DNA from: an uncultured Acidobacteriota bacterium | GTDB lineage: Bacteria; Acidobacteriota; Terriglobia; Terriglobales; Acidobacteriaceae | Assembly (NCBI GenBank): GCA_903832055.1 | Contig: CAILAC010000010.1 | Location: 992,001 to 1,056,000, forward strand | Direction: 5' to 3' | Length of the DNA: 64,000 nucleotides | Shown: positions 51,154 through 64,000 of the stretch, piece after piece | Layout: every line of letters begins with the position of its first letter | Numbering within the stretch: the stretch's first letter is position 1 | Program-made: the position numbers and the translations under genes | The notes under the pieces: model-generated | What the model was told of the DNA's origin: nothing | Database searches by the model: none | The model's input: only the letters and a program-made list of their open reading frames with translations

Positions 51154-51180
51154 GATGTTGCTCTCTTTCGAAAATAATCA

Positions 51181-51242
51181 GTGTGAGTGTGAAGTGTGAG
51201 TGTGAGGTGACAGAAGCCACACTCCACACTCACGCGCACACT
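51181..51242 (-). repeat. GTGTGA-type inverted repeat between rpoA and rplQ
   Basis: The left arm (51181-51209) repeats GTGTGAGTGTGAA; the right arm (51217-51242) is CCACACTCCACACTCACGCG plus CACACT and reaches into the rpoA stop codon. The arms pair imperfectly. On the coding strand the element begins at the rpoA stop. Confidence 0.8.
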
Positions 51243-52335: not shown

Positions 52336-52457
52336 GGTGCTTTCCTTTTCCTGTGTGCACTCTCCGACGCGAAGCATTCTGCGGCGGTCACACGGGTTAT
52401 CGTTCGTTAGGATTTGCCGGACAGTGTGTTAGTCCGGGGTGGATCGAGTGGGAGTTT

Positions 52458-52507
52458 GAAGTGTGAGTGTGGGGCGCTTGCCTTTCACACTCACACCCCA
52501 CACTTAC
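52458..52507 (-). repeat. GTGTGA-type stem-loop after rpsD
   Basis: GAAGTGTGAGTGTGGGG (52458-52474) faces TTTCACACTCACACCCC plus CACACTTAC (52483-52507), overlapping the rpsD stop. The coding strand carries GTGTGAAAGGCA next to the loop, shared with the elements at 53219 and 59656. Confidence 0.85.
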
Positions 52508-53218: not shown

Positions 53219-53284
53219 GGTGTGAGTGTGAAGTGTGAGTGTGAACTACAGATTGCCTTTCACACTCACACTGCACACTCACAT
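53219..53284 (-). repeat. GTGTGA-type near-perfect 26-bp stem-loop after rpsK
   Basis: Left arm 53219-53244 (GGTGTGAGTGTGAAGTGTGA plus GTGTGA) and right arm 53259-53284 (TTCACACTCACACTGCACAC plus TCACAT) match at about 23 of 26 positions across a 14-nt loop. It starts 8 bp after the rpsK stop on the coding strand. The core GTGTGAAAGGCAAT is present. Confidence 0.9.
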
Positions 53285-53292
53285 TGCATTTC

Positions 53293-57882: not shown

Positions 57883-58368
57883 TTACGCTGCTGCGGAAGT
57901 TTCGGGCGCGCCGCCAGCAACAGTAGCCTTGCCACCGGCCTTTTCAATCTTTTCCTGAGCAGACTTGGAAAACTTGTGCGCGGTAACTTCGAGGGCCGCA
58001 TTCAGGTCGCCGTTGCCGAGGATCTTGATCAGTGCCTTCTTGCTGCCGGCGAGACCAAGCTTCTTGTAATCGTCGATGCCGATCACGCTCACGCCCTTTT
58101 CGGCGGCAACTTCAGCAAGGCGCGCAACATTAATCACGGTGTATTCGACGCGGAAGATGTTGGTGAAGCCTCGCTTGGGAAGACGGCGATGCAGGGGCAT
58201 CTGGCCGCCCTCAAAGCCACGCATAAGGCTCGAGCCGGTGCGCGCTCCCTGACCCTTGTGGCCACGGGTTGAGGTTTTGCCCATGCCGGAGCCCATACCG
58301 CGGCCGACACGCTTGCGCCCGATATTTGCTTTTTTGGGGGCGCGCAGATTGGATAGATTCTTTGCCAT
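57883..58368 (-). CDS. rplO: 50S ribosomal protein L15
   Basis: 161 residues. The Gly-rich basic N-terminus (LSNLRAPKKANIGRKRVGRGMGSGMGKTSTRGHKGQGAR) and the globular C-terminal part (LAEVAAEKGVSVIGIDDYKKLG...NAALEVTAHKFSKSAQEKIEKAGG) are typical. AGGAAAATC precedes the ATG. The gap to rpmD carries a heptad stem-loop. Confidence 0.98.
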   Translation of the reverse strand: MAKNLSNLRAPKKANIGRKRVGRGMGSGMGKTSTRGHKGQGARTGSSLMRGFEGGQMPLHRRLPKRGFTNIFRVEYTVINVARLAEVAAEKGVSVIGIDDYKKLGLAGSKKALIKILGNGDLNAALEVTAHKFSKSAQEKIEKAGGKATVAGGAPETSAAA

Positions 58369-58427
58369 GATTTTCCTCGCTCATGCGCCGCTTGAGACTT
58401 GTCTCGAACGACTCGCGTTAGTTACAT

Positions 58428-58480
58428 ATGTGAATGTCGAGTGTGCGTGTGGTGGTCAAACGCTCACTCCACACTCAACA
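58428..58480 (-). repeat. GTGTGA-type inverted repeat after rpmD
   Basis: ATGTGAATGTCGAGTGTGCG (from 58428) faces CTCACTCCACACTCAACATT (58463-58482), abutting the rpmD stop. The arms share ATGT.GAGTGTG in inverted form with a few mismatches. Confidence 0.75.
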
Positions 58481-58666
58481 TTAGTTGATGATGCGTACCA
58501 GGTGCGGAACGGTCTTGACCATGCCGCGAACCGACTCGTTGTCAACGCGCTCAACGATCTGATTGAGCCGCGTGAAGCCCAGGCCCTTGATCACCAGTTT
58601 GTGCTTCACCGGGGTCGAGATGGCCGAGCGATAGTACTCGATGCGAATCTTCTTGTTTTCGGTCAT
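58481..58666 (-). CDS. rpmD: 50S ribosomal protein L30
   Basis: 61 residues: KIRIEYYRSAISTPVKHKLVIKGLGFTRLNQIVERVDNESVRGMVKTVPHLVRII, the complete bacterial L30 fold. Starts 4 bp after the rpsE stop. A heptad stem-loop begins at its stop codon. Confidence 0.98.
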   Translation of the reverse strand: MTENKKIRIEYYRSAISTPVKHKLVIKGLGFTRLNQIVERVDNESVRGMVKTVPHLVRIIN

Positions 58667-58670
58667 TGGA

Positions 58671-59177
58671 TTAAAGCTCCTCTACCGTCTTGCCGCGCAT
58701 CAGGGCAACCTCAGCCTTGTCGCGCAACTGGGTCAGCGCGTCAAAGGTGGCCTTGATGACATTGTGCGGGTTGGCCGTACCGAGCGACTTGGTGAGCACA
58801 TTCTGCACGCCAGCCGAGGTCATGACGGCGCGGACTGCACCGCCGGCGATGACGCCGGTTCCTTCTGGAGCTGGCTTCAGCAGAACATGGCCAGAGCCAT
58901 AACGGCCCAGTACCTGGTGCGGAATGGTGGTGGCGGTGAGGTTGACCTTGACGAGGTTCTTCTTGGCCGACTCGATTGCTTTACGAATCGCCTGAGGAAC
59001 TTCCTTGGCTTTGCCTGCACCGTGGCCAACAACTCCGGCAGTGGCGTCGCCCACCACGACCAGCGCGGCAAAGGACATATTCTTACCGCCCTTGACCACT
59101 TTGGTGACGCGGTTGATCGACACGACCTGATCGGTCAGCTTAAAGTGATTGGCGTCGAGTTTCTTAGTAAATGCCAT
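58671..59177 (-). CDS. rpsE: 30S ribosomal protein S5
   Basis: 168 residues. The double-stranded-RNA-binding-like N-terminal domain ([50 protein letters not shown]) and the C-terminal domain ([39 protein letters not shown]) are complete. ATG 59177 gives the usual start; upstream in-frame codons are unrelated. Important for decoding accuracy. Confidence 0.98.
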
Positions 59178-59242
59178 TTCTTTCCGGGCCTCCTCGGCCT
59201 TGAACCTCATTGGGTCTTTGCTTGGAAATCCAAACCAGTTGC

Positions 59243-59599
59243 TTAAAAGTCGAGACCAGCTTCACGTGCAGCGTCGGCCAGAGCCTTGATACGGCCGTGG
59301 TAAAGATAGCCGCCGCGGTCGAACACAACTTTCTTGACGCCCTTTTCGATTGCCTTCTCAGCAACCAGTTTGCCCACTTCCTTGGCCGCAGCGATGTTGC
59401 CACCCGCGTCGATCTTGTTGGCAAGGGTCGATGCTGATGCAATCGTCACACCCTGGGAATCGTCAATCACCTGGGCATAGATGTGGCTGAGCGAGCGGTA
59501 GACGTTGAGCCGGGGACGCTCGGCAGTGCCAGAGAGCTTCTGGCGAATCCGGAAGTGTACCCGGTTGCGAATCTGATTTCGTTCTGTCTTTGCAATCAT
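59243..59599 (-). CDS. rplR: 50S ribosomal protein L18
   Basis: 5S rRNA-binding protein, 118 residues: [47 protein letters not shown], ending [41 protein letters not shown] precedes the ATG. Longer in-frame starts would translate the heptad repeat and are rejected. Confidence 0.98.
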
Positions 59600-59655
59600 T
59601 TCGATTCTTCCTATCAGCGGAGCGAGACTCTCGCCCCGTTCGGTGGTTAAAAACC

Positions 59656-59723
59656 AGTGTGGAGTGTGAAGTCCGAAGTGTGAAAGGCATTGCACACTCC
59701 ACACTCCACACTTCACACTCGGA
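59656..59723 (-). repeat. Heptad stem-loop after rplF, inverted core
   Basis: Left arm 59656-59683: AGTGTGG, AGTGTGA, AGTCCGA, AGTGTGA. Right arm 59693-59720: CACACTC, CACACTC, CACACTT, CACACTC. The right arm abuts the rplF stop. GTGTGAAAGGCATTG lies on the + strand here, the opposite of the copies at 52458 and 53219, so the element is present in reverse. Confidence 0.9.
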
Positions 59724-60263
59724 TTACTTCGAGCCTGACTTGCCGGCCTTCTTCTTGAGCTTCTCGCCGGTGTAACGCACGCCCTTGTTCTTGTACGGAT
59801 CCGGCTTGCGCAGTGAACGCATATCCGCAGCTACCTGACCAACCTTTTGCCGGTCGATACCAGAGATGGTCAGATGGGTCTGCTTGGGATCGATAGTCAC
59901 TTCGATGCCGGTAGGCAACGGAAACTCAATCGGATGCGAATAGCCAAGAGTGAAGACCACCATGCTCTTGCCCTTCAACTCGGCGCGATAGCCAATGCCG
60001 ACGATGTCCAAGTCCTTCGTCCAACCCTGCGTAACGCCATGCACTGCGTTGTAGACCAGCGCGCGGGTGAGGCCGTGGAAGGCCGCGGCCTTGTCGCTCT
60101 CGCGTTCGATATTGAGGACGTCGCCCTCTTTAACCAGCGTGATGCCGGGAGCGATGAGAGCGGTAACCTTGCCCTTGGGGCCCTCGACGAGCACGGTGTT
60201 GCCCTCGACGGTGTATTTCACACCGGCTGGCAATGCGATCGGTTTCTTGCCAATACGTGACAT
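59724..60263 (-). CDS. rplF: 50S ribosomal protein L6
   Basis: 179 residues with the two L6 repeats: [33 protein letters not shown] at the start and [25 protein letters not shown] at the end, the latter the L6 signature 1 region ([15 protein letters not shown]). AAGGATCAAGAA precedes ATG 60263. Located near the factor-binding site of the large subunit. Confidence 0.98.
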
Positions 60264-60389
60264 TTCTTGATCCTTCGATGGCTTGCGAGTCCCGGTCCGG
60301 ATGACTCCGTCGTTCCACTGCAGCCGATACAACCAAACAGCACAACTTCTCTTCTGGATCCGCAAAGGCCGAGGCCCGTGCGGCAGTTG

Positions 60390-60788
60390 CTACCAGACTT
60401 CGCAGAGAATCTCGCCGCCGACGCCTTCACGACGAGCCTGGCGACCAGTCATGACACCCTTGGGGGTGGTCATGATGGAGATGCCGAGGCCGCCTTGGAC
60501 ACGCTTGATCTCATCGCGGCCGATGTAAACACGGCAGCCGGGACGGGAGATGCGGGCCAGATCGCGGATGGCAGCTTCAGAGCCCGCGCCGTATTTCAAG
60601 TACACGCGCAGGACCTGCTTGCCCTCTTCTTCCTGGGTTTTGTAGTTCGAGATATAGCCCTCTTCCTTGAGGATACGGGCAATCTCAGCCTTCAGCTTTG
60701 AAGCGGGAACATCCAGCTTCTGGTGGCGTGCACGGATAGCATTCCGGATGCGCGCCAGAAAATCTGCTACTGGGTCAGTCAGACTCAT
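60390..60788 (-). CDS. rpsH: 30S ribosomal protein S8
   Basis: 132 residues: MSLTDPVADFLARIRNAIRARHQKLDVPASKLKAEIARILKEEGYI, and the conserved C-terminal GLGISIMTTPKGVMTGRQARREGVGGEILCEVW. In E. coli S8 represses the spc operon by binding its mRNA; whether this occurs here is unknown. GAAGGAGAAGGA precedes the ATG. Confidence 0.98.
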   Translation of the reverse strand: MSLTDPVADFLARIRNAIRARHQKLDVPASKLKAEIARILKEEGYISNYKTQEEEGKQVLRVYLKYGAGSEAAIRDLARISRPGCRVYIGRDEIKRVQGGLGISIMTTPKGVMTGRQARREGVGGEILCEVW

Positions 60789-60858
60789 TCCTTCTCCTTC
60801 ATCCCCCGTTCGCTCAGCCTGTCTGGCCGAGAACCTGCGGGAATGCTTATTACAGTTG

Positions 60859-60912
60859 TCAGGGGTCAGATTTCAGGGCTTTGTTTTGGTCTCTCTGAAA
60901 CCTGATCCTTGA
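60859..60912 (-). repeat. TCAGGG/CCTGA-type heptad stem-loop after rpsN
   Basis: Left arm TCAGGGGTCAGATTTCAGGG (60859-60878) and right arm CTCTGAAACCTGATCCTTGA (60893-60912) pair at 16 of 20 positions; the differences are transitions. It starts 18 bp after the rpsN stop. Same architecture as the GTGTGA elements but a different heptad sequence. Confidence 0.8.
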
Positions 60913-60930
60913 TCGCTGTTTCCTGTTTTA

Positions 60931-61116
60931 CTACCAGCTCGACTTGACGACACCTGGGATTTCACCCCGGTGTGCCAGGCTACGGAAGCACAAGCGGCAG
61001 ATGCCAAACTTGCGGAGGAACGCACGCGGACGTCCGCAGAGCTGGCAGCGGTTATGTTGGCGGCAGGCAAATTTGGGCTTGCGCGCGTCTTTCACTCGTT
61101 TTGCAGTGGTTGCCAT
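60931..61116 (-). CDS. rpsN: 30S ribosomal protein S14, zinc type
   Basis: 61 residues, the short zinc-binding form: four Cys in CQLCGR and CRLCFR (Cys24, Cys27, Cys40, Cys43), preceded by [11 protein letters not shown] and ending [15 protein letters not shown]. Small-subunit head assembly protein. 21 bp after rplE. Confidence 0.98.
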
Positions 61117-61137
61117 AGTTCCTCGTGTTCCTCTCGC

Positions 61138-61686
61138 TTACGCGCCTTGCCGGAAGGGCATGCCAAACTGCCGAAGCAGCGCACGTGCCGAATTATCGTC
61201 CTGGGCGGTGGTGACAATGGTGATGTTCATACCCTTCAGCTTTTCAACCTTGGAGTAATCAATTTCCGGAAAGATCAGCTGGTCGCGCAGGCCGAGCGTG
61301 TAGTTGCCGCGGCCGTCGAAACTCTTGGTGGACACGCCGCGGAAGTCACGAACCCGAGGCAACGCCGTCGAAATCAAGCGGTCCAGGAATTCGTACATCG
61401 CGTCTGAGCGCAGCGTAACCATGGCGCCAATCGACATGCCAGCGCGCACCTTGAAGGCTGCGATGGACTTCTTGGCCTTGGTGGTCACGGGCTTCTGTCC
61501 GGTTACCGCGGCGAGGTCGGCCACCAGCGGGTCGAGCAGCTTGGTGTTCTGGGTCGCTTCGCCGAGACCCATGTTGACGACAATCTTGTCGATTCTCGGA
61601 ACGGCCATGATGTTGTCGAGGCCCAGCTCCTTCTGGAGCGCGGTGCGAATCTCGTTGTTGTACTTCTCTTTCAAACGTGCTGCCAT
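61138..61686 (-). CDS. rplE: 50S ribosomal protein L5
   Basis: 182 residues; binds 5S rRNA and contacts the P-site tRNA. Signatures [50 protein letters not shown] and [28 protein letters not shown] 61686 gives the typical [17 protein letters not shown] start; longer in-frame codons are Pro/Gly-rich and unlike L5. Confidence 0.98.
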
Positions 61687-61809
61687 TGCTCTCTGCTCTC
61701 TTTCTCCCGGTCCCGGAGTGGCTTGTCCCAAGGGACTCACCGTTTACCGTTGCGGAAGGTGCTCCGTTGATTCAATTGATAACCCATACCGCTACTACCC
61801 TGACCAGAA

Positions 61810-62142
61810 CTACTTGGTCTTGGTCGGCAGGGCCGCGCCACACTTCTTGCAGACGCGGGTCTTGGTGTCGCCCTCAATCTTGAAGCCCACACGGGTCGGC
61901 TTGCCACAGCTGGTGCAGACCAGGGCCACATTCGAAACATGCAACGGGGATTCCTGCTCGGCGATGCCGCCCTTGGTGTTCTTGCCCGACTTTGAGCTGA
62001 CCGTCTTCTTGACGATGCGCACGTGTTCGACGAGGACCCGATCCTTGTCCGGGAATACCCGGAGGACGCGACCCTGCTTGCCGGCATCGGTGCCTGTCAG
62101 CACCTGTACCTTGTCGTTGCGATGAATATTCAAACCAGCCAT
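61810..62142 (-). CDS. rplX: 50S ribosomal protein L24
   Basis: 110 residues. The KOW motif (NIHRNDKVQVLTGTDAGKQGRVLRVFPDKDRVLVEHVRIVKK) initiates 50S assembly near the exit tunnel. The C-terminal part has CTSCGKPTRVGF and RVCKKCG, a two-pair Cys cluster that probably binds zinc and is absent from E. coli L24. Confidence 0.98.
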   Translation of the reverse strand: MAGLNIHRNDKVQVLTGTDAGKQGRVLRVFPDKDRVLVEHVRIVKKTVSSKSGKNTKGGIAEQESPLHVSNVALVCTSCGKPTRVGFKIEGDTKTRVCKKCGAALPTKTK

Positions 62143-62231
62143 GTTCTTCTCTCACTCGGCCGTTCAAGTCTTTTCACGACTCGCGGCTCAATCTCTTTGC
62201 CCAGCTTGCTTTTTGCCCAACTTGCCCGGGA

Positions 62232-62603
62232 TTAGATAACTTCCGGAGCCAGTGAAACAATTTTCAGAAACTTCTTTTCACGCAGTTCACGAGCCACCGG
62301 CCCGAAGACACGCGTACCTACAGGCTCGCCCGCTTCATTGATGAGCACTGCAGCGTTCTCGTCAAATCGGATGTACGTTCCATCCCGGCGACGATACTCC
62401 TTGCGAGTACGGACAATGACCGCCTTGACGACCTTGCCCTTCTTGACCGTGCCGTCGGGGGAAGATTCCTTCACCGCAGCTGTAACCACATCGCCCAAAC
62501 CAGCCTTCTTGCCCGAAGATCCACCCAGGGGAAGGATTACCTGCAACTTGCGCGCGCCCGAATTATCGGCAACCGCAAGCATCGTTCTCATTTGTACTGC
62601 CAT
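62232..62603 (-). CDS. rplN: 50S ribosomal protein L14
   Basis: 123 residues: [62 protein letters not shown] and a C-terminal [28 protein letters not shown], the L14 signature. Sits at the subunit interface. Confidence 0.99.
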
Positions 62604-62672
62604 TTGCTCAACTCCTTCCCCCGATACTCATGAGCGACCTGCGCACATCGACCGGGCTGAATCTCTCGCGAC

Positions 62673-63008
62673 TTAGACAGCCTTGGGGGCTGCGTCTTCC
62701 ATCTGGTTCAGCGACGAGCGCCGAACAATCTCTTCCAGAGCCCAGCGCTTCAGCTTGCTCAGCGGGCGGCTTTCGCGGATGCGCACCACATCACCGACGC
62801 GCGCCGAATTCTGCTCGTCATGGGCATAGAACTTCTTGTTGCTCTTGACGATGCGCTTGTACTTGGGGTGCGCCTTGCGCATCTCAACTTCAACCACAAT
62901 CGTCTTCGACATCTTGGTCGAAACCACATTGCCAACTTTCTCGTTACGACGAGCGGGCGCTGCGGCTGCGGGAGTTACTGCCTGCGTATTATCTGTCGTG
63001 GCCGTCAT
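62673..63008 (-). CDS. rpsQ: 30S ribosomal protein S17
   Basis: 111 residues, an OB-fold 16S-binding protein: [70 protein letters not shown]. The N-terminus is extended by about 20 Ala/Thr-rich residues compared with the usual ~84-residue protein. Starts 3 bp after the rpmC stop. Confidence 0.98.
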
Positions 63009-63011
63009 AAA

Positions 63012-63266
63012 TTACCGGGCCTCCTTCTTGGTCTTGGCGGGCTTGGCTGAGGTAGCCTGCGGCGTTTCGCCGTGAATCGCGAGCACGCGCTCGCGGGCGA
63101 TCGTCTTGATGCGGGCAATGTCCTTACGCAGCTCACGGATCTTTTGCGTGCCATCGTTTTGCCCCAGCTTGGCCTGAAAGCGGATGCGAAAGAGCTGCTC
63201 GGAGAACTGCTTCTCCTGCGTCTTCAATTCGTCGTCGCTCCAGTTGCGAATCTTTGCTAATTCCAT
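63012..63266 (-). CDS. rpmC: 50S ribosomal protein L29
   Basis: 84 residues; the conserved helices IRNWSDDELKTQEKQFSEQLFRIRFQAKLGQNDGTQKIRELRKDIARIKTIARER are typical, followed by a Lys/Ala-rich tail longer than usual. Lies near the peptide exit tunnel. Confidence 0.98.
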   Translation of the reverse strand: MELAKIRNWSDDELKTQEKQFSEQLFRIRFQAKLGQNDGTQKIRELRKDIARIKTIARERVLAIHGETPQATSAKPAKTKKEAR

Positions 63267-63323
63267 CGGTCTCTCTCCAGCGGGGGCTCAGTGCCCGGTA
63301 CGCCTGTTTGCTGCTTGACTGAA

Positions 63324-63773
63324 TTACTGCGCCGCTTCAGCGGGTTCTTCCACGTTCTTGATGATCGCCGGGCGCTGCACGAAGCGAGTCTTCAAGGGCA
63401 GCTTGTTGGCTGCCAGACGCATCGCTTCCATTGCGACTTCGGGAGTAACGCCTTCCATCTCGAAGAGGATCTTGCCTGGCCGCACAACCGCCGCCCAGTG
63501 ATCCAGGGCACCCTTGCCGGAGCCCATTCGGACTTCAGCGGGCTTCTTGGTGACTGGCTTGTCTGGGAAGAGACGGAGCCAGACCTTGCCACCGCGCTTG
63601 ATAAAGCGGGTCATCGCGATACGGCTGGCTTCGATCTGGCGGTCGGTAATGTAACCGCACTCCATCACCTTGAGCCCATATTCGCCAAACGAGAGGGTGG
63701 AACCGCGCCATGCCTTGCCGCGCATCTTGCCCTTTTGTTGTTTGCGAAACTTAACCTTCTTTGGCTGCAACAT
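63324..63773 (-). CDS. rplP: 50S ribosomal protein L16
   Basis: 149 residues: [106 protein letters not shown] in order, with both L16 signatures. Organises the A-site region of the large subunit. Confidence 0.99.
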
Positions 63774-63786
63774 AGCGAAATCCTCA

Positions 63787-63803
63787 AAGTACGACTCGTA
63801 CTT
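63787..63803 (-). promoter_or_regulatory. Small hairpin in the rpsC-rplP gap
   Basis: AAGTACG (63787-63793), loop ACT, CGTACTT (63797-63803): a perfect 7-bp stem in the 50-bp gap, just 5' of the rplP ribosome-binding region. Confidence 0.45.
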
Positions 63804-63823
63804 AAACCAAAATCATTCAAAAC

Positions 63824-64000
63824 TTAGAGCTGGAAAGCACCTGCGCCTGCTACAACCGGCTGCCTGCGCTTCTGCTCGTAGATATCGCCGCGATAGATCC
63901 AAGTCTTCACGCCGATGATGCCGTAGGTGGTGTGCGCTTCAGAGAAGCCGTAGTCAATATCCGCACGCAGTGTGTGCAGCGGCAGACGGCCCTGAAGGTA
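63824..64000 (-). CDS. rpsC: 30S ribosomal protein S3, C-terminal part (cut by window edge)
   Basis: Only the last 58 residues are inside the window: [40 protein letters not shown], the S3 C-terminal signature, then a short tail ending AGAGAFQL. S3 forms part of the mRNA entry channel and helicase. The gene continues beyond 64000 on the minus strand and opens the run seen here. Confidence 0.97.

Follow-up and report, generated by a model that had tools for sequence, protein, structure and literature searches.

Inverted heptad arrays between rpsN and rpsH of an acidobacterium belong to a dispersed hairpin family whose pairing looks to be upheld mainly at the DNA level

Introduction

Stems that are conserved in pairing are usually taken as evidence of RNA function. 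The gap between rpsN and rpsH in an uncultured bacterium of the Acidobacteriaceae raises the question of whether such an interpretation suits a hairpin that is built from repeated heptads and whose letters differ from species to species. We analyzed this gap within a window of 64,000 nt, to which all plain coordinates below refer; the S10/spc/alpha ribosomal-protein operons lie at its right end, on the minus strand. The rpsN-rpsH gap spans 60789–60930 (142 nt) and contains two modules, a heptad hairpin beside the rpsN stop codon and a conserved element before rpsH. In order of transcription, the features are:

60931–61116, minus strand: rpsN (S14, 61 aa), the upstream gene; open reading frame, used as tblastn query; stop codon at 60931–60933
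60895–60919, minus strand: 5' arm of the heptad hairpin on the transcript (core 60895–60912); inverted repeat, lag-7 identity 0.73 in the core arm
60877–60894, minus strand: 18-nt loop of the heptad hairpin, from the inverted-repeat search
60852–60876, minus strand: 3' arm of the heptad hairpin on the transcript (core 60859–60876); inverted repeat, lag-7 identity 0.73 in the core arm
60789–60848, minus strand: conserved two-helix RNA element, a candidate rpsH leader separate from the heptad hairpin; from a 55-sequence alignment, covariation, a G.U/A.C count and a genome search
60390–60788, minus strand: rpsH (S8, 132 aa), the downstream gene; open reading frame and named relatives

Results

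A heptad inverted repeat follows the rpsN stop codon

On the plus strand the heptads read TCAGGGG (60859–60865), TCAGATT (60866–60872) and TCAGGG (60873–60878), and the inverse arm, CTGAAACCTGATCCTTGA, occupies 60895–60912. The strict core of the hairpin covers exactly 60859–60912, with two 18-nt arms that are 83% Watson-Crick paired; ungapped extension gives 25-nt arms with 76% complementarity (60852–60876/60895–60919). Identity within the core arms is 73% at lag 7 and below 30% at all other lags from 4 to 11. When 60849–60930 was shuffled under a Markov model, the inverted-repeat score was reached in 2 of 2000 shuffles, and in 0 of 2000 when a lag-7 identity of at least 0.6 was also required. 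The heptad inverted repeat that the first-pass annotation had described at 60859–60912 is thus real, with its letters as described. Its placement just past a stop codon was also borne out, as on the transcript 11 nt separate the rpsN stop from the extended arms and 18 nt separate it from the core. Only 3 nt separate the extended arm (60852) from the rpsH element (60848).

The folding z-score is −6.1 on the plus strand and −3.9 on the transcribed strand, with folding energies of −32.9 kcal/mol and, as transcript, −20.9 kcal/mol. The weaker z-score of the transcribed strand is due to several mismatched positions that read A.C there and G.T on the opposite strand. Rfam at gathering cut-off gave no match in 58000–64000, and a permissive search of the rpsN-rpsH gap returned sub-threshold matches only, animal microRNA-like and similar.

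Heptad hairpins form a dispersed family

Among 2074 distinct ribosomal-operon gaps of relatives, counted after removal of duplicate gap sequences, we found 306 distinct heptad hairpins. The scan covered gaps of up to 900 nt between genes adjacent in the reference order. A first set of 61 loci yielded 1064 ribosomal-operon gaps, 761 of them at least 40 nt long; 236 had an inverted repeat, of which 192 were heptad repeats. In a second, named set (80 loci, 1263 gaps), 137 of 184 inverted repeats were of this kind. A mixed sample of ~1.14 Mb from the same genome and its relatives gave 60 heptad repeats among 125 intergenic inverted repeats. Of 221 inverted repeats in ribosomal gaps whose periodicity reached 0.6, 190 had seven as their best lag, as did 57 of 74 in the mixed sample; shuffled sequence contained essentially no periodic segments. 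Some gaps scored negative by the detector look heptad-like by eye (L207, L068, L179, L181, L297 and L299), so these counts are conservative. Overall, heptad hairpins constitute a family that is dispersed in the 3' ends and intercistronic gaps of Terriglobales (Acidobacteriota) and is densest in ribosomal-protein operons.

The distribution is patchy. Eight of the nine cultured isolates in the named set (dw_441, Acidipila EB88, KBS 89, Edaphobacter modestus, E. lichenicola, Terriglobus albidus, T. roseus and Paracidobacterium acidisoli) had no heptad hairpin in any of the 19–21 gaps scanned; the ninth, ZG23-2, had one. Arrays matching a strict YAGYKNY pattern occurred in 94 of 297 Acidobacteriota genomes, with a maximum of 542 matches in G149 against 17 for the reversed pattern; control matches exceed pattern matches in some genomes (G192, G280), and the genome studied here has none.

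The placement of the hairpins is regular. Across 251 hairpins (three gaps that hold other elements were set aside), the median distance is 5 nt from the stop codon to the 5' arm and 18 nt from the 3' arm to the next start. Co-directional gaps of 40–400 nt carried heptad hairpins in 29 of 136 cases at ribosomal loci and in 14 of 228 elsewhere (p=3e-5), compared with 6 of 67 convergent and 1 of 75 divergent gaps. These orientation totals pool 9 genomes out of 18 listed; one genome without gene calls (G019) is absent from them and from the mixed-sample counts. Gaps with a heptad hairpin are mostly longer than others at the same place (rplE-rpsN, median 144.5 versus 49 nt), a rule that fails at infA-rpsM and rpsK-rpsD.

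The unit itself has a preferred composition. CAG or TAG (YAG) occurs in 265 of 306 consensus units of the 5' arm, and units with YAG and without CTR outnumber the reverse by 169 to 9, where letter-shuffled units would give 50.8 and 74.7. The 5' arm of a hairpin reads alike on either strand, so the polarity is directed at the centre of the hairpin and not along transcription. We also observed a stop codon in either arm of the consensus unit in 252 of 306 hairpins (184 expected from letter-shuffled units); a 7-nt period would place such a codon in all frames.

An intrinsic terminator was considered and rejected. The transcript runs on past the 3' arm as AATAAGCATT, with no U-run, a scan found no terminator-like site at the rpsN-rpsH hairpin, and TTTT lies within 10 nt of only 31 of the 306 heptad hairpins.

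Heptads drift within the orthologous gap

A heptad hairpin occupies the rpsN-rpsH gap in 25 of 57 loci of the first set, 18 of 80 of the named set and 39 of 126 distinct gaps. Relatives carry other heptads here (CAGTGGT, CAGTTCT, AGCTTCT, GTTTCAC, GTCGTTG), with arms that match each other, and the heptads differ between species, often in both arms at once. In the sister genus g9, which to judge from the named listing seems to be related to MAGs named Terracidiphilus, 14 of 19 distinct rpsN-rpsH gaps have a heptad hairpin. Its units all contain AG and are mostly CAG-type, and by eye the outer ends ACAG...CTGT are frequent, as in the genome studied here. Units in genus g7 are GTCGTTG-like. Permutation tests found heptads alike across gaps inside one genome (g9 p<0.0005, g7 p=0.057) and at the same gap across genomes (g7 p<0.0005, g9 p=0.043), which argues for local inheritance plus homogenization. 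To judge from these comparisons, the rpsN-rpsH hairpin was probably inherited here with its CAG-type heptads.

Five rpsN-rpsH gaps of g7 (L176, L178, L180, L183 and L066) have a dispersed-looking palindrome, CCTTCGCGAGAC...GTCTCGCTCAG, in place of heptads; it is often accompanied by a GCGCGCC palindrome.

The first-pass annotation had suggested that position and fold are conserved at this place while sequence varies, and that the heptad is unrelated to the AGTGTGA units of other hairpins in the window. The former holds insofar as hairpins of the same build with other heptads do recur in relatives, but across the family 87 of 126 gaps lack one; it is the neighboring pre-rpsH element that keeps position and fold with a variable stem sequence. 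As for the latter, AGTGTGA hairpins are indeed another class, found elsewhere in the genome, but the CAG-type heptad found here is what the sister genus typically carries in this gap. Paired substitutions do occur in the family: 67 disjoint pairs of hairpins showed 19 double changes from one Watson-Crick pair to another, but also 172 one-sided changes between Watson-Crick and A.C or other non-G.U combinations. A search of the genome for the CTGANNY class to which this heptad belongs gave 15 matches to a triple pattern at 9 sites, 3 of them inverted pairs, against 0 for the reversed control. The corresponding count for the AGTGTGA class (155 matches versus 120 in the reversed control) is by itself no evidence. 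Arrays of that class in the window are:

59656–59720, minus strand: AGTGTGA-class heptad hairpin, rplF-rplR gap
53220–53288, minus strand: AGTGTGA hairpin of mixed 6/7-nt units, rpsK-rpsD gap
52453–52504, minus strand: AGTGTGA-type hairpin, rpsD-rpoA gap
51180–51231, minus strand: AGTGTGA/CCACACT arrays between rpoA and rplQ

In all four, 6-nt and 7-nt units alternate. Many further AGTGTGA arrays exist in this genome, for example a long one at G000:C10:564745–564983.

A conserved, covarying element precedes rpsH

The second module consists of an outer stem of 6–7 pairs, an internal loop (GCWGGUU/CGAACG) and a variable inner stem, followed by the Shine-Dalgarno sequence AAGGAG. In an alignment of 55 of the 57 first-set sequences (L065 and L067 were dropped because they aligned badly), the G, C, GGUU and AAC of the internal loop are invariant in all 55, and GCDGGTT matches in 57 of 57 gaps. 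Both-side changes affect 11 of 16 pairs, in 158 cells versus 55 in shuffles, and 96.6% of cells are paired versus 38–56% in slid versions. The core motif was present in 66 of 80 rpsN-rpsH gaps of the named set. Searched under strict filters, a covariance model (R1) matched once in each of 29 genomes among the 31 sampled from the family and never in 266 other Acidobacteriota; no genome outside f1 was matched among the Acidobacteriota sampled. All 29 matches lie between rpsN and rpsH, with the rpsH start within ~11 nt of the element's end. Searches found no Rfam family for it.

We know of few regulatory RNAs described in Acidobacteriota. As a covarying structure directly upstream of a ribosomal-protein gene, the element is proposed to be a candidate autoregulatory rpsH leader whose ligand could be S8 or S14, and it is a new candidate leader for the S8 gene. 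According to the accessible portion of PMC4176348, the E. coli spc operon carries an S8-binding leader before rplE. Both structures have a helix with a conserved internal loop in an S8-encoding operon; however, a reading of GCWGGUU/CGAACG does not reveal the invariant A642 or the base-triple pattern that mark the S8 site. No rpsH leader was found described in the accessible open-licence literature, and the terms 'acidobacteri' and 'rpsh' have 0 occurrences in the available text of PMC7247131. The element core had no match in the 16S rRNA of this genome, which says little given that the record is incomplete and was searched on the stored strand only. In family f2, the rpsN-rpsH gaps L022, L024 and L025 are short, contain a GC-rich stem and have the same ending, GGAATGAAGG; this is perhaps a diverged pre-rpsH element.

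G.U and A.C mismatches separate the two stems

If pairing on the transcript is selected, G.U should be tolerated and A.C should not; if the arms are copied as DNA, both should be equally frequent. The hairpin detector scored Watson-Crick pairs only and so treated G.U and A.C alike. On the transcript strand, the arm mismatches of the 306 hairpins comprised 312 G.U and 275 A.C (53%, CI 49–57%, p=0.14), whereas the control, the pre-rpsH element in all 57 gaps, gave 69 and 5 (p=2e-15). Given this contrast, it is chiefly as DNA that heptad pairing looks to be upheld, and any selection on the RNA would be weak. Static mismatches show no clear preference for G.U, and recent changes show a weak lean towards it: in 67 disjoint nearest pairs, changes on one side that link Watson-Crick with G.U numbered 107, and those that link it with A.C 72 (p=0.011). 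This lean may reflect weak RNA-level selection or a strand mutation bias.

Whole hairpins fold better on the transcript in 204 cases versus 102, which at face value could be a sign of strong RNA selection. That interpretation was rejected, as composition controls removed most of the asymmetry (210 versus 96 for fully shuffled hairpins and 532 versus 166 for repeat-free gaps), leaving a residual transcript advantage of −1.0 kcal/mol (p=6e-4). Arm duplex energies favored the two strands in 150 and 135 cases (p=0.055, not significant). The arms match at 0.855 in register and ~0.77 when shifted by 7, a difference inflated by the detector having picked the register. A simple G.U/A.C count thus separates two stems in one 142-nt gap, and provides a ready test for DNA-maintained hairpins generally. 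The pre-rpsH element is the stronger lead for function.

Discussion

Relation to known repeats

Comparisons here extend as far as the accessible portions of the cited papers. Published heptanucleotide repeats include TAACTGA of Beggiatoaceae and cyanobacteria (PMC4679880) and GGGAATC of Xanthomonas and GGGGATT of Nostoc (PMC4692102). Like these, the heptad hairpins consist of tandem, often degenerate 7-nt units (lag-7 identity 0.73 in both arms at rpsN-rpsH), are intergenic, occur in many copies per genome, are patchy across phyla and vary in length and sequence among relatives. Unlike them, they are not direct arrays of a single heptad: published arrays are mainly direct with one heptad dominant per genome, whereas the arrays here are inverted, their units are degenerate and the heptads vary by gap and genome. 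For this reason we file the heptad hairpin as a new variant of the known heptanucleotide repeats rather than as a plain member. The accessible text of both papers has 0 occurrences of 'acidobacteri' and does not name Acidobacteriota as hosts, and no description of heptad hairpins in Acidobacteria was found in the open-licence literature available.

Closest in form is the P6b stem-loop of the cyanobacterial tRNA-Leu(UAA) intron, with Class I TDNGATT and Class II NNTGAGT heptads (PMC4476775). It shares a heptad-built stem, a lineage-specific class, a stable fold and 7-nt units that are gained or lost on one side or on both. It differs in its location, which is a self-splicing intron to whose RNA folding the stem contributes rather than a protein-operon gap, and in having two classes versus many here. 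Hairpins made by template switching (PMC8794818) likewise have reverse-complement arms and multi-base compensatory change without RNA selection; however, template switching is a general mechanism without heptad periodicity.

Origin of the heptad hairpins and alternatives

We favor an account in which intercistronic heptad hairpins are drifting inverted heptad arrays, produced by slippage and template switching and with little or no function as stems in mRNA, and assign it a probability of about 0.58. Two inverted degenerate heptad arrays would occupy tolerant space between the rpsN stop and the conserved pre-rpsH element. Polymerase slippage would duplicate or remove units seven bases at a time, and the two arms would be kept alike at replication by template switching or hairpin-templated repair, so that the sequence drifts and the inverted repeat persists. 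What we observed directly is the repeat and its recurrence, heptads that drift at a single orthologous site, and nearly equal numbers of G.U and A.C mismatches; slippage and template switching are the agents that we infer, as we do the near absence of stem function. The greater length of hairpin-bearing gaps is as expected of expansion. Where the cited papers are accessible, PMC4679880 and PMC4692102 refer to an earlier study linking a unit length of seven to the DNA polymerase footprint, and PMC8794818 treats template switching as an established route to the creation and mending of hairpins. The enrichment in ribosomal operons is not predicted by neutral drift alone and counts against our explanation. 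Moreover, neither slippage nor template switching explains the YAGYKNY consensus and its polarity. One bolder idea invokes a replication enzyme, such as primase, with CTR as its site of starting or switching: it would build and homogenize the arrays, which would then be a DNA element of the phylum that renews itself and not passive products of slippage. The start site of E. coli primase is CTG. We consider this idea a long shot.

A function in mRNA is a more serious, if in our judgment rather doubtful, alternative: the stem would shield or process the upstream message, or would bring the stop codon and the next Shine-Dalgarno sequence together for coupled translation, with pairing selected and sequence free. 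The placement of the arms (medians of 5 nt from the stop and 18 nt to the next start) suits such a role, as do the enrichment in ribosomal operons, the rarity in divergent gaps (1 of 75), the lean of one-sided changes towards G.U (107 versus 72) and the residual folding asymmetry. The same anatomy follows, however, if flanking functional sites simply halt expansion. Selected pairing is also hard to reconcile with the static mismatches (312 versus 275, compared with 69 versus 5 in the neighboring element), with an rpsN-rpsH hairpin that folds worse as transcript than on the opposite strand (−20.9 versus −32.9 kcal/mol) or with the 87 of 126 gaps in relatives that have no hairpin. We consider it very improbable that the rpsH leader uses the heptad hairpin as a functional component, as it would in a switch formed with the conserved element. 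They share one gap with a spacing of 3 nt, but the element core is present in 57 of 57 first-set gaps and the heptad hairpin in 25 of 57, gaps that have no such element host heptad hairpins just as readily, and folding of the whole gap leaves the two stems apart.

Spread as a REP-like mobile palindrome by a Y1 (REP-associated) transposase would account for dispersed intergenic palindromes. Y1_Tnp genes occur in 5 of 5 genomes searched, and RAYT-like TIRYT transposases are described in Acidobacteria in the available text of PMC3733652, where REP elements are short, multi-copy intergenic palindromes tagged with GTAG or CGTC. In contrast, the rpsN-rpsH hairpin has no such tag directly at its foot, the heptad hairpins have no sequence common to members, and those of the rpsN-rpsH gap are inherited with drifting heptads rather than arriving as one sequence. 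Nor was an association with transposases found: among the 12 loci examined of 37 matches, a heptad inverted repeat flanked none, and lag-7 segments lay in the flanks of 2. We give this proposal scarcely any credence. Chance or an assembly artefact, to which one might turn given that short degenerate arms alone are not unusual, is most improbable for the rpsN-rpsH copy and already refuted for the family, given the shuffle tests, the 306 distinct hairpins in other genomes and assemblies, and the CTGANNY triple pattern (15 versus 0) in this genome.

Heptad hairpins offer a large natural data set on the preference of bacterial repeats for seven bases. As a separate observation, one long AGTGTGA array lies ~1.1 kb from a Y1 transposase gene in this genome (G000:C10:310062–310173 and 311239–311568).
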